Assembly: GCF_900474295.1 (NCBI RefSeq)
Contig: NZ_UCOB01000014.1
Span: 186,001-250,000, forward strand
From: Synechococcus sp. UW140
GTDB lineage: Bacteria; Cyanobacteriota; Cyanobacteriia; PCC-6307; Cyanobiaceae
Reading direction: 5' to 3'
DNA: 64,000 nt
The position numbers and the translations under genes were made by a program. A model generated the notes under the pieces. That model saw only the letters and a program-made list of their open reading frames with translations. It searched no databases and was not told the DNA's origin. Shown here piece by piece: positions 4,506 to 39,089 of the stretch (its first letter is position 1; each line of letters starts with the position of its first letter).

Positions 4506-5726
4506 ATGACCACCACCGTGGATCTGAGCGACGATCTGGAGGTCATCAACAGCGCCATGAGCAGCGATGGCATTCGACTTCGCATCGAGAAGCGCGGTGA
4601 ACGCCTGAATTTGCGGGGTCCGCTGCCCTGTCGAACAACGCCTGGTCGCACCAGGATGCAACGGCTCAGCCTCGGGGTGCCAGCCACCACTGACGGTCTG
4701 CAAGAAGCCAAGCAGCTTTTGCTTTTAGTGGATCTCCAGCTGCGCCGCGATCAGTTTGATTGGCAGCAATGGACGAAGCAGACAGCGCGCCCCGCCAGCG
4801 ATCTCTCCAAAACGTCATCCAGGCGATCTGAAGGGAGGTCGTTGCAGAGCAGCGATCCGATCACCCTTCAGTTGGCGGGCTTTGAGAAGAGCTTTTTCTG
4901 CGACCCAATCCGGCGACGCTCACCTGCCGGCAGCCGCACGACCTGGAGTTCTGCCTACAGGCCCTACCTCAGACGCTTGAAGGGAATCGCTGAGGAGCGC
5001 AACCTCAGCCTGGGCACCGAACTGCTGGCCCTCACCCTCAGCAGTTATGCAGACGCCAGCCGCAGCCGTCAACAGTGCGCCACCAGTCTCAGCGCCTTGG
5101 CGCGCCACTACGCCATCCCCCTGCCTGACAACTGGCGAGCGGAAGCGGCGGGCTACGGGCTGCATCGAGCACGGTTCCGTCAGCTGCCCAGTGATGGCCA
5201 GATCTTGGAGGCCGTACTGCGAATCCCAAACCCCGGCTGGCGGCTGGCCTTCGGCCTGATGGCCACCTACGGGCTCCGGAACCACGAGTTGTTCTTCGCC
5301 GACCTCAGCGCGCTTGCCCCAGGGGGAGACCACGTGCTGCGAATCCTGCCCACAACCAAAACTGGCGAACATCAGGTCTGGCCGTTCCATCCCGACTGGG
5401 TGGAGCGTTTCCAGCTGTGCGAACTCGGTCGCACCCCCAACCTGCTACCGAGCATCAACACCGATCTGAACCGCACCACACTGCAGCAGGTGGGACGGCG
5501 GGTTGCTGAACAGTTCCGTCGTTATGAGCTGCCTCTCACCCCCTACGACCTCCGCCATGCTTGGGCCGTACGCACGATCCACATCGGCCTACCTGACACC
5601 GTTGCTGCCAGGATGATGGGCCACTCGGTTGCGATCCACACCCGCACCTACCACCACTGGATCACCCGACGTGATCAGCAGCAGGCGGTGGATGCGGCGC
5701 TCGCCCGTCAAAAAAACACTGGATGA
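4506..5726 (+). CDS. Tyrosine recombinase / integrase-family protein
   Basis: A 406-residue protein whose C-terminal half carries the tyrosine-recombinase active site: Arg258 (GLRNHE), Lys285 (TTKTGEH), Arg350 in PYDLRH, His373 (MGHS) and nucleophile Tyr382 (TRTYHHW). The first His of the usual HxxR box is Tyr347, a tolerated change in the family. The N-terminal part holds a core-binding helical domain (about 145-205). It sits between hemH and a core methyltransferase, with base composition like its neighbours and no visible att repeats, so it looks like a resident chromosomal recombinase and not a recent insertion. Its stop overlaps an ATG of a 25-codon frame (ATGA, 5723) of unknown reality. 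Confidence 0.85.
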   Translation: MTTTVDLSDDLEVINSAMSSDGIRLRIEKRGERLNLRGPLPCRTTPGRTRMQRLSLGVPATTDGLQEAKQLLLLVDLQLRRDQFDWQQWTKQTARPASDLSKTSSRRSEGRSLQSSDPITLQLAGFEKSFFCDPIRRRSPAGSRTTWSSAYRPYLRRLKGIAEERNLSLGTELLALTLSSYADASRSRQQCATSLSALARHYAIPLPDNWRAEAAGYGLHRARFRQLPSDGQILEAVLRIPNPGWRLAFGLMATYGLRNHELFFADLSALAPGGDHVLRILPTTKTGEHQVWPFHPDWVERFQLCELGRTPNLLPSINTDLNRTTLQQVGRRVAEQFRRYELPLTPYDLRHAWAVRTIHIGLPDTVAARMMGHSVAIHTRTYHHWITRRDQQQAVDAALARQKNTG

Positions 5727-34657: not shown

Positions 34658-36253
34658 ATGAGTCCTGCTGCGAGCAAAACAGCACAGGCCAAGCCCAAAG
34701 CCGCTGCTAAGCCATCGATCATGATGCTGGCCGACTCACGTGGCAAATCCAAGGTCGTCAAAGCTGCCGGTGCAGAGGCCAAAAGCAAAACCAAAGCTGA
34801 CGGCAAGACCCGTTCCAGCAAAAGCAAAACATCCGATCTCCCTGCCGGAACTGACTTGAAGGCTGCCGCCGACCAACTGCTGGCCGCTGCGGACGGCAAG
34901 AGCAAAGCCGCCAAAACAACCAAGACAGCCAAAGCAACCAAAACCACCGGCACCAAGGCTGCCGCCAAGACCAGTAGCGCTAAATCCTCAACAACCAAGG
35001 CTGCCGCCTCAAAAGCAGCCACAGCATCGATGAAAGCTGGAGATGCCAAGGCTGTCACGGCCAAGGCTGTCACAGCCACGGCCACCCCAACGAGCGCCGA
35101 GAAGGAAGCCAAGGCAAAGGCCCTGGCCAGCATCAAGATCGGCCCCAAAGGCGTTTACACCGAAGACTCCATTCGGGTCTATCTCCAAGAGATCGGACGC
35201 ATTCGCCTGCTGCGTCCTGATGAAGAGATCGAGCTAGCACGGAAAATCGCCGACCTGCTCTACCTCGAGGAACTCGCTGCCCAATTCGAAAGCGACAACG
35301 GCCGCGAACCCGACAACAAAGAGTGGGCGGCCTTGGTCGAAATGCCCCTGATTCGCTTCCGCCGTCGCTTGATGCTGGGCCGTCGGGCCAAGGAAAAGAT
35401 GGTGCAGTCGAACCTGCGCCTGGTGGTGTCGATTGCCAAGAAGTACATGAACAGAGGCCTGAGCTTCCAGGACCTGATTCAGGAAGGCAGCCTTGGCCTC
35501 ATCCGTGCCGCTGAGAAATTCGATCACGAGAAGGGCTACAAGTTTTCCACCTACGCCACCTGGTGGATTCGTCAGGCCATCACCCGTGCGATTGCCGACC
35601 AGTCCCGCACGATCCGTCTTCCGGTGCACCTCTACGAGACGATCTCTCGGATCAAGAAAACCACCAAGGTGCTCAGTCAGGAGTTCGGCCGCAAACCGAC
35701 CGAGGAGGAGATTGCCGAGTCGATGGAAATGACTATCGAGAAGCTGCGTTTCATCGCCAAGAGCGCCCAGCTGCCGATCTCGCTCGAGACTCCGATCGGC
35801 AAGGAAGAGGACTCTCGTCTCGGCGACTTCATCGAAGCGGACATTGAAAACCCTGAACAGGATGTCGCCAAGAACCTGCTCCGCGAAGACCTTGAGGGAG
35901 TGCTGGCCACACTCAGTCCACGCGAGCGCGACGTGCTCCGCCTGCGCTATGGCCTGGACGACGGTCGCATGAAGACCCTTGAGGAGATCGGCCAGATCTT
36001 CGATGTCACCCGCGAGAGGATCCGCCAGATCGAAGCCAAAGCGCTGCGCAAGTTGCGTCACCCGAATCGCAACGGCGTCCTGAAGGAATACATCAAGATA
36101 ATAGCGGGGAGCATGGCAAACCCTCTAAAGCCATCAGGCAACAGGGGGTTCAGCAAAGCACTGAATGTGCGTGGGATGCATCTTTCAGAGACCAGTCCCA
36201 GTGGTCATCACTTCGGTCGACCTCCGAGTCGCCTCTACTCAGAGAGTACATAA
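34658..36253 (+). CDS. rpoD: Principal RNA polymerase sigma factor with abnormal tails
   Basis: Group 1 sigma-70 protein (531 residues as read). Region 1.2 starts near residue 167 ([16 protein letters not shown]), followed by regions 2 ([36 protein letters not shown]), 3 and 4 ([31 protein letters not shown]). The first 150 residues are a low-complexity Lys/Ala/Thr tail resembling histone H1. The usual end, GVLKEYIK, falls at residue 480, but the frame continues for 51 residues ([14 protein letters not shown]...) into DNA that adjoins a broken integrase. The extension is probably acquired by the island insertion or by loss of the stop. Confidence 0.92.
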
Positions 36254-36399: not shown

Positions 36400-36837
36400 G
36401 CCGGAGCAGCAGCACTTGCTGTGGCATCTATGTCGATGAGCATGTGCCCACATCAGCGAAGTGGCAGGCCTAAAAAGAACAGATATTGACCTAAAAGGAG
36501 GAGTTATTAACATCACCCCAACCAAAGAGCTGCCACTGAAGAGAAAGCTCCACGAGAGAGTCATCACAATTCAGAAGTATCTATTAACCAAACTCGAGAA
36601 GATCCAAGACAAGCTCCAAACAAAGGACACCTAATCCCCTTGGTTTTCAACGCTGAGCGGTACAGATGGCGTGAGGGCATCCAATGGGAACGGAGGCTCG
36701 GAATCACACCCAAAGAAACTCTGGAAACGGTAGCTACTTGCCGGGGGGGAAGGAGATTAATGAGCGCACTATCGGCAAGCTCTTCGGTCACAGCCCAAGC
36801 AAGGACTCAATGACTGATGGCTAGGCTCAGCCGATCC
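36400..36837 (+). pseudogene. Decayed tyrosine recombinase (integrase)
   Basis: Pieces of an integrase can be read in different frames. Near 36452-36630 is ISEVAGLKRTDIDLKGG, VINITPTKELPLKRK and a downstream helix ending at a stop: the Arg box region and beta strands of the catalytic domain. Near 36745-36830 is INERTIGKLFGHSPSKDSM, the LGH box close to the C-terminus. Stops and frame changes separate them, so it is inactive. Its place directly after rpoD suggests it once integrated there. Confidence 0.7.
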
Positions 36838-37122
36838 CGACTCTCTGAGGAGGGCGGCAAAGCAGCTTGGCCGAGACCTTGTGGAGAGTCTCGGCACAGG
36901 GGGCTTCACAGTGATGGTGATGCCCTTGAAACAAGTTCCAGCAGTTCGCATGACGGCGGTTGATTCACCCTCAACAGCAGCTCTGAATGAAATCTTCTCA
37001 GACATACACCAGGCAACCGAGTTGCCAGCGGAAGACAGCTGAACTACACTGAACTTAAGAAAGATAGAATTTTCCAAGACAATTCTCTTTCGCTCCAGAA
37101 TTAATTGGGTTGAGGCAAGGCT

Positions 37123-37998
37123 ATGCTTCGCAGAACGTTTATTGGACTGACGACGACAGCAGGCCTTGCGCTTGCAAGTTTGGGCCGAGTCAAGCATGCC
37201 AAGGGAGAAGAGGATCATGATTCTGATCAAGACTGCTATATCAATCTTCAGGCTGTTCAAACACGCGACGAATTGATCAAGTACTTCAAAGAAAATGGCT
37301 ACCACTCGATCAACCCTTTACCTCTGGTCACCGGAGTTGAATTTAATGGCGGCCTTCAATTTGATGACGACAGCTTGCGAATAGGCGCCAGAGACTATTC
37401 CATTCAAGCTTCCGCAAGAGTGGAGGATCTCAGCGAAAAAAACAAACCAGGAGCGCTGCCACTCTTCCACGTGATGGCACTCAGTCCTGCAGGCGGGATA
37501 CAGCCAAATCAAAGCATTGACCTCAGCCTGAAGTTTCTCATCAATCAACTGGGCATTGTTCATGACCGATTGCGTGTCACAGGGACAAATCACCTCTCAG
37601 CTCATTTGCCGCTGCTTCAGCAGTATGGAATTCAAGAATCACAGATCCGCTTCGTTGACTTAAAAGAGGCTAGGATAGCTGGGAAAGGTTCAGGCTACTT
37701 TGAGCCTAAAGGCCATCCACGCTCACCATCTCTAGAGACATACTCGATCGAATATGTCTTACCAAGCGGTCAGGAAATTGAAATTGTCGAAATCGGCCTC
37801 GATGGAATTGGGCTTGGCCTTGGCATCGAGCGATTGACGATGGCACGTCACAATCAGTTGCTGACCTGGAAGCAAGGACTGAAAAGTTTCAGAGATGCAG
37901 TACAGGCAAGTGCCCAGCGGCAGGACCTGCCATTGCCCAGAGGGTACTTCGAAATCCTTGGACTCCCGCAACCGGATTCAGACACTGGCGATGCCTAG
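37123..37998 (+). CDS. Exported protein resembling a class II aminoacyl-tRNA synthetase core
   Basis: 291 residues. The N-terminus RRTFIGLTTTAGLALASLG looks like a twin-arginine or Sec signal. Beyond it the order of segments recalls the AlaRS catalytic core: LIKYFKENGYHSINPLPLV (residues 51-69), SIDLSLKFLINQLGIVHDRLRVTG (131-154), YGIQESQIRFVD, and class II motif 3-like G228-x-G230-x-G232-x-G234-I-E-R237. I judge this only by eye. AT-richer than neighbouring core genes and within an island, so probably acquired. It could equally be a diverged enzyme using the same fold. A Shine-Dalgarno-like GAGG precedes the ATG. Confidence 0.7.
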   Translation: MLRRTFIGLTTTAGLALASLGRVKHAKGEEDHDSDQDCYINLQAVQTRDELIKYFKENGYHSINPLPLVTGVEFNGGLQFDDDSLRIGARDYSIQASARVEDLSEKNKPGALPLFHVMALSPAGGIQPNQSIDLSLKFLINQLGIVHDRLRVTGTNHLSAHLPLLQQYGIQESQIRFVDLKEARIAGKGSGYFEPKGHPRSPSLETYSIEYVLPSGQEIEIVEIGLDGIGLGLGIERLTMARHNQLLTWKQGLKSFRDAVQASAQRQDLPLPRGYFEILGLPQPDSDTGDA

Positions 37999-38460
37999 AC
38001 ACAGCGATACCCAGGGCCAGCGATCCATAATTTGCCCACCACCTGCTCCATGCCCACCTAAAGGACGACGACAAGCGGGAGTGCCAAATCAAGACCCGGC
38101 CAGCCGGGGCCATACCTTCGCGAGGTCCACATGCATGGCCTGAGATGCCATCCAAACTCACTCCCTTAGGGGATCTTATTTGGCATTGACCCTCCTCCAA
38201 TGGAAACCACACCCCAAACTCAGAGCGTCCAGCGCTTTTGAGGCTGAAGGCAAGCCCCCTACTTGGGGGTTTTTTAATGGTCAATCCGGCGATGATCCCA
38301 GCACCGGAGCTCCAGCAAAGTCTTCAAAGCAATTGAGTGGAGGACTGCAGCTCGAGCACCCCAATAGCCCCCCTCAGTCGTTTGATACCGATCAACAACT
38401 CATTTGGAGAGTCAACGCAAGGCAGAAACCCCTATGACACTGAAGCGAAACTGCCGATGA
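37999..38460. other. Gap with terminator, no convincing gene
   Basis: 462 bases after the synthetase-like gene. No frame has a convincing start and composition. The stretch holds the terminator at 38252-38275 and, from about 38360, the upstream region of the first small-paralogue gene. Confidence 0.6.
38252..38275 (+). terminator. Rho-independent terminator
   Basis: AAGCCCCC pairs with GGGGGTTT around a five-base loop and is followed by a run of T. Probably ends transcription from the 37123 gene. Confidence 0.8.
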
Positions 38461-38718
38461 ATGGAATTAAGCCGCGTCGACCGCATCTCCCTGGCGCATC
38501 GCTGGCTCCCGAGACAGGACATTGTCCTCATGCTGGAGTGCGCTTACAGAGGCATCTCAGAAGACTGCCAAGATGGTGAATTATTGATGAAGATGGAGAG
38601 TTGGATCGAAGGGGCATGTCGACTCTCAGAACACAACATGAAAAACCTTCTGGCGCGAGTGAAAGAGTTTGCAGTAGAGGAGTGCGAAGACAAGTCATCA
38701 ACAAAACGATTGAGCTGA
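38461..38718 (+). CDS. Small helical protein, tandem paralogue A
   Basis: 85 residues, all-helical and charged. It aligns without gaps with the next gene: RVxRIxxAHxWLxRxDIxLML, then SEDxxxGExxxKMExW, then LSEHxxxNLLAxxKEFxVE (about half the residues identical). The 5' flanks also match (TTTGATACC and a purine-rich stretch 60-100 bases before each start), so the unit was duplicated with its leader. No family recognised. Confidence 0.7.
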   Translation: MELSRVDRISLAHRWLPRQDIVLMLECAYRGISEDCQDGELLMKMESWIEGACRLSEHNMKNLLARVKEFAVEECEDKSSTKRLS

Positions 38719-38843: not shown

Positions 38844-39089
38844 ATGAAACCGAATCGAGTCGTCCGCATCGCACAGGCTCACCCATGGTTGGCAAGGAAA
38901 GACATCTGTCTCATGCTCCACCAGGCGTACGACACATTTTCAGAAGACTACAAAGGCGGGGAAATACAGATCAAGATGGAGAAGTGGACAAGTAACTTGT
39001 GCAAACTATCCGAACATGAAGCGAGAAACCTTCTTGCACTAGCAAAAGAGTTCTCTGTTGAAGGAATTGAATACAGTCAATATCCATAA
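38844..39089 (+). CDS. Small helical protein, tandem paralogue B
   Basis: 81 residues, second copy of the pair. The conserved His-x-Trp-Leu (AHPWLARKD) and Ser-Glu-His (KLSEHEARNLL) are kept in both copies, which suggests selection. Copy B differs most in its middle and at the C-terminus. Function unknown. Confidence 0.7.
   Translation: MKPNRVVRIAQAHPWLARKDICLMLHQAYDTFSEDYKGGEIQIKMEKWTSNLCKLSEHEARNLLALAKEFSVEGIEYSQYP

Follow-up and report, generated by a model that had tools for sequence, protein, structure and literature searches.

The window, i.e. the complete stretch of 64,000 nucleotides analysed here, contains at 37123-37998 a gene for a protein of 291 amino acids, of which the host genome (an assembly of 2.7 Mb in 35 contigs) has one copy. 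Judging by its gene sequences and the genome sizes of its relatives, the host is probably a cyanobacterium of the small-genome picocyanobacterial type. The gene is located downstream of an rpoD-like sigma factor gene, behind a degraded integrase fragment, and lies between the truncated ends of two genes which are its neighbours in other genomes. The features of the locus are:

36440-36631 (+), decayed remnant of a tyrosine recombinase (integrase), upstream of the synthetase-like gene; PF00589, E 0.0066, under the Pfam cut-off
36900-36987 (+), 3'-terminal remnant of a flavin reductase gene; 88 bp align to L004 with 73% identity
37123-37998 (+), gene for a synthetase-like protein of putative class II type, predicted to be Tat-exported, 291 aa; homologues, dN/dS 0.2-0.3
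38017-38105 (-), 3'-terminal remnant of an AI-2E family permease gene, containing an in-frame stop; 80% over 25 aa

In two relatives (G016 and G024) the gene has a flavin reductase gene (PF01613) on one side and an AI-2E permease gene (PF01594), convergent with the former, on the other. The corresponding empty site was found in at least 15 relatives, in which the ends of these two genes come within about 16 bp of each other with nothing between them; compared with this site, G016 and G024 show a clean insertion of the gene between the two core genes. The window copy is located elsewhere, with the same flanking ends as in G016 and G024, and the intact flavin reductase gene of the host genome is found on another contig. 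As the window gene is flanked by the ends of both neighbours, a segment of about 1.2 kb, comprising the gene and these two ends, was copied or transferred into the island. The first-pass annotation of this DNA had assigned the gene to an acquired region, which is borne out by the integrase remnant upstream and the truncated gene ends on both sides. The position of the integrase fragment downstream of the sigma factor gene suggests an old integration site. The island around the window copy is degraded, yet the reading frame of the gene is kept.

The sigma factor encoded upstream (34658-36253, +) carries a low-complexity N-terminal extension of about 160 residues, rich in Ala, Lys, Thr and Ser, which precedes the conserved region. 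The same island contains two tandem small ORFs of 85 and 81 aa (38461-38718 and 38844-39089, both +), which are paralogous to each other; the first of them shows only a weak match to DUF7833 (E 0.021). Far upstream, the C-terminal part of a 406-aa ORF (4506-5726, +) reads like a tyrosine recombinase (LTPYDLRHAW...GHS...Y).

No conserved functional partner could be identified in the gene neighbourhoods of the carriers, nor any conserved neighbour that would hint at a substrate. As resident genes around an insertion, flavin reductase and AI-2E permease were dismissed as partners, and so was the GMC oxidoreductase encoded downstream in G575, which is not common to the other carriers. The synthetase-like gene of the most distant carrier is followed, after about 400 bp and on the same strand, by a GMC oxidoreductase gene (L075, 10726-12231, +). 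Searches with PADLOC and PHROGs gave nothing of use.

The reading frame is kept in four homologues, which according to the alignment are 61, 60, 49 and 43% identical to the window protein. Silent sites are saturated in most comparisons, so that dN/dS was measurable for few pairs; the closest pair of copies (L002 and L003) gives 0.28, and the window copy compared with L002 gives about 0.19. The gene is thereby shown to be under purifying selection, and the ORF is confirmed as a real gene beyond chance.

Carriers are rare at each level searched. The search of the genus covered each of its 31 genomes and found the gene in three; for the bacterial family the count is five out of 400 sampled genomes, spread over three genera. 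Genus-wide searches in the genera of the two distant carriers revealed no further members. A class-wide draw of 390 genomes returned only the window's own copy and a single weak match in G148, which lies inside an AI-2E permease and was discarded as chance; the sampled genomes of other bacterial families contained no member. No member was detected in the phages, plasmids, viral contigs and GTDB genome contigs searched. Because so few carriers turned up in the genus, family, class and mobile-element searches, the unnamed protein family is shown to be tiny, sporadic and cassette-like in its occurrence.

The first-pass annotation had described an exported-looking N-terminus (RRTFIG), followed by a segment LIKYFKENGYHSINPLPLV and by GIQESQIRFVD and GIGLGLGIER, all of which are present in the 291-aa ORF. 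An additional segment quoted as 'AIDL' is present as well, but its actual reading is SIDLSLKFLINQLGIVHDRLRVTG. Within the protein we distinguish:

37123-37206 (+), residues 1-28, predicted Tat-type signal peptide MLRRTFIGLTTTAGLALASLGRVKHAKG; alignment, hydropathy, background count, TatC
37264-37335 (+), residues 48-71, motif 1-like helix and following strand RDELIKYFKENGYHSINPLPLVTG; collinear with motif 1 of AlaRS and PheRS alpha
37402-37485 (+), residues 94-121, motif 2-like unit; R99, D102 and LPLFH (112-116) invariant
37687-37731 (+), residues 189-203, family-specific near-invariant stretch GSGYFEPKGHPRSPS; alignment
37810-37848 (+), residues 230-242, motif 3-like region GLGLGIERLTMAR; alignment, profile matches

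Signal peptides of Tat substrates are marked by a twin arginine in the context S/T-R-R-x-F-L-K, a weakly hydrophobic h-region, a basic c-region which acts as Sec avoidance, and an AxA-type cleavage site (PMC7317946). Sequence features of this kind were found in all five family proteins. In the alignment each of them starts with M-[LQ]-R-R-x-F, the h-region is only weakly hydrophobic (best 13-residue hydropathy mean 1.5-2.3), and a basic c-region is followed by [A/S]-x-[A/G] in one common alignment column. The residues at -3 and -1 are A and G in the window protein and S/A and A in the other four, and cleavage is predicted after residue 28. Outside the family an RR-x-hydrophobic start occurs in one ORF among the 583 ORFs of at least 200 aa in the fetched DNA. 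TatC is encoded in all five carrier genomes, and the NCBIfam Tat model TIGR01409 gives 11 bits, which is under its cut-off. The exported look of the protein, first proposed from the window copy, thus extends to a conserved signal and cleavage site in the whole family, and export via Tat is well predicted with high probability.

In the mature part motifs resembling the class II motifs 1, 2 and 3 are present in order, each match being individually weak. The distance from R99 to F115 in the motif 2-like unit is 16, as in AlaRS, and a helix follows at residues 131-144. ATP is held in class II cores by the motif 2 Arg and the motif 3 Arg. The motif 2 Arg with its acidic residue (R99, D102) and the motif 3 Arg with its preceding glutamate (E236, R237) are invariant in all five members, as are G232 and G234 of motif 3 (alignment numbering). 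The near-invariant stretch at residues 189-203, in which H198 is replaced by D in one member, probably forms a substrate-facing loop, as far as its role can be judged from the sequence. Strands are predicted around residues 207-225 before motif 3, and the protein ends about 50 residues past this motif.

We found no significant HMMER match in Pfam, NCBIfam or PDB. The PheRS alpha core (PF01409) is the sole Pfam family that matches more than one member (three of five, E 0.13-0.35, sub-threshold), always at motif 3 and with 12.2 bits at best versus a cut-off of 19.8. Weak matches to Nif11, SPIN and methanogenesis marker 11 occurred in one member each and were taken as chance. A profile-profile comparison was then made with 22 PheRS alpha, 31 AlaRS and 30 GlyRS alpha sequences from relatives, with 100 column shuffles each. 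In these tests, in which the compared sequences are mutually related and the hypothesis had been prompted by the same motifs, PheRS alpha scored 30.5 versus 14.7 +/- 2.6 for the shuffled profiles, GlyRS alpha 24.8 versus 15.2 +/- 3.0 and AlaRS 21.7 versus 15.0 +/- 2.6, and none of the 100 shuffles reached the score in any of the three cases. With motif 3 removed, AlaRS still scored 21.9 versus 14.4 +/- 2.5 (reached by one of 100 shuffles), whereas the PheRS alpha signal was mostly gone (19.4, reached by three of 100) and that of GlyRS alpha was lost (12.8, reached by 84 of 100). For AlaRS as for PheRS alpha, the segments that match best locally are equivalent motifs, and the alignment with AlaRS stays collinear over motifs 1 and 2 and the helix after them. 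When single sequences were compared to the PheRS alpha profile, three members scored above all 1000 shuffles. The family profile among 1109 background ORFs gave AUC values of 0.98 for PheRS alpha and 0.95 for AlaRS, or 0.92 and 0.86 against the long background ORFs, values which overstate the evidence because the background consists of loci fetched by synthetase searches and the group members are close relatives. Taken from these profile results and the motifs, a class II synthetase-type core is likely. The class II signature noted before thus persists as consistent weak profile evidence, without a significant database match and with a low-confidence single-sequence AlphaFold model (pLDDT 35).

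Its assignment to AlaRS in particular is not supported. Alanine is recognised in AlaRS by the conserved Trp-192 and Asp-248 of 2zzg (PMC4938167); in our by-eye alignment, which is uncertain at the Trp, the family has Tyr and Gly/Asn/Ser at these positions. The tRNA-recognition, editing and C-Ala domains are absent, and there is no room for them after motif 3. Because PF01411 is unmatched at E 10, these domains are absent, the recognition residues have no counterpart in our alignment and the host genome has its complete AlaRS gene at another place, the protein is not AlaRS. GlyRS alpha was likewise rejected, since it matches at motif 3 only and the match vanishes once this motif is removed. Membership among asparagine synthetase A, HisZ or EpmA found no Pfam or NCBIfam match. 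The motif 2 is of the AlaRS/GlyRS-alpha type (Arg, two residues, Asp) and motif 3 of the PheRS alpha type, and the comparisons support PheRS alpha as nearest for motif 3 and AlaRS as nearest for motifs 1 and 2. PheRS alpha belongs to subclass IIc, together with SepRS and PylRS. AlaRS and bacterial GlyRS alpha together make up subclass IId in PMC4938167. From its sequence, the family is best called class II-like, without assignment to a particular synthetase. Two further matches met in other cyanobacterial genomes, an AlaRS-like one with three internal stop codons (G057:C1:1089001-1090458, E 4.8e-61) and a PheRS-alpha-like one with one internal TAG (G043:C5:233618-234412, E 3.1e-78), each the second of its kind in the genome, are apparently decayed or frameshifted synthetase copies.

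The explanation we prefer, with a probability of roughly 0.6, is a Tat-exported, tRNA-independent class II synthetase-like core which binds or uses a nucleotide and acts on a non-tRNA substrate; for this protein we infer the fold, the dimerisation, the nucleotide binding and the extracytoplasmic role. The stand-alone core would fold in the cytoplasm and reach the periplasm or the thylakoid lumen through the Tat pathway, and signal peptidase would remove the 28 residues after export. Since the Tat route transports proteins in the folded state, the core could pass through it already folded and perhaps with a nucleotide or adenylate in its site. With the ATP-site arginines of motifs 2 and 3 retained, the exported core, be it enzyme or sensor, would bind either a nucleotide or an adenylate-like ligand produced in the cell, and would act on or sense a substrate other than tRNA. 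Since the arginines that hold ATP are kept, the tRNA part is absent and the AlaRS amino-group residues are lacking in our alignment, the protein is likely a nucleotide or adenylate binder with a non-tRNA substrate, and without a tRNA-binding part another role outside the cytoplasm is probable. Against this explanation stand the HMMER searches without a significant match, the low-confidence fold model, the dependence of the GlyRS alpha signal, and mostly of the PheRS alpha signal, on motif 3, and the expectation that the space outside the cytoplasm contains no free ATP. In a more far-reaching version, which we consider doubtful, the proteins would be exported enzymes of a new class II synthetase-like family; a nucleotide, either bound in the cytoplasm before the folded export or supplied outside, would enable them to activate small molecules, or to transfer them, in the periplasm or thylakoid lumen independently of tRNA.

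As a variant of the exported core, the protein could be a catalytically inactive binding or sensor protein derived from a class II core, following a logic like that of HisZ. We regard this as possible, though clearly a minority view: the replaced amino-group-recognition residues of AlaRS and the expected lack of free ATP outside agree with it, whereas the nucleotide-site arginines and the GSGYFEPKG-PRSPS stretch, kept in all five members, are more than a pure scaffold needs. It is rather unlikely that the fold of the exported protein is new or unrelated to class II cores and that its GxGxGxER and RxxD stretches came to look like class II motifs through chance or convergence. The sub-threshold database matches would fit such a fold, as would the fact that the strongest single signal is the motif 3 of 14 residues; AlphaFold from the single sequence, for the full length as well as the mature part, reached a pLDDT of 35, and Foldseek found no match for this model. 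Against it stand the best AlaRS and PheRS alpha matches, which fall on equivalent motifs in the correct order, and the matching residues R99, D102, F115, E236 and R237, which are invariant in the family.

Still less probable is a class II-like enzyme which stays in the cytoplasm, or is anchored N-terminally in the membrane and faces the cytoplasm, and which ligates its substrates at the expense of ATP in the manner of asparagine synthetase A or EpmA/PoxA. Both ATP-site arginines are retained, ATP is cytoplasmic and membrane-anchored synthetases are known in cyanobacteria (PMC4893482), but all five members have an N-terminus of the kind expected for a cleavable Tat signal, from RR-x-F and the weak hydrophobicity to the basic c-region and the small residues at -3 and -1. 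That the protein is a moonlighting alanyl-tRNA synthetase, be it a true or a truncated one, has practically no probability left, as the resemblance in the order of motifs 1 and 2 is outweighed by the complete AlaRS elsewhere, the lacking domains and recognition residues and the unmatched PF01411.

Among the class II synthetase-like proteins outside translation, none is reported as exported as far as the account in PMC9437257 goes. If the preferred explanation is true, a Tat-exported bare core with ATP-site residues would extend the class II repertoire across the membrane, and it raises the question which role an adenylating fold plays where ATP is not expected.

The family shares with PheRS alpha (PF01409) the motif 3 G-x-GVER-x-x-M and a motif 1-like helix; in contrast to PheRS alpha it has no similarity beyond the motifs, no beta subunit and no tRNA-binding coiled coil, and it is predicted to be exported. 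With AlaRS (PF01411) it has in common a collinear motif 1, motif 2 (R-x-x-D with equal spacing to F) and following helix, whereas the Pfam match, the recognition Trp and Asp and the tRNA, editing and C-Ala domains of AlaRS are missing and export is again predicted. Class II cores that lack tRNA domains have taken on other tasks in AsnA, PoxA, aa:CP ligases and HisZ, among them the synthesis of amides, the modification of proteins, the loading of carrier proteins and regulation (PMC9437257). Asparagine synthetase A, HisZ, EpmA/PoxA and the aa:CP ligases resemble our family in their class II-type core, with the tRNA domain lost in several, and differ in that they are not described as exported in that source (PMC9437257). 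A sequence link of the family to any of these four was not found. CAAD is an extra domain which is added onto full synthetases. Some cyanobacterial synthetases are membrane-anchored with this domain (PMC4893482), and like them the family would place synthetase-related proteins at cyanobacterial membranes; unlike them, it consists of a bare core with a predicted cleavable Tat-type signal.
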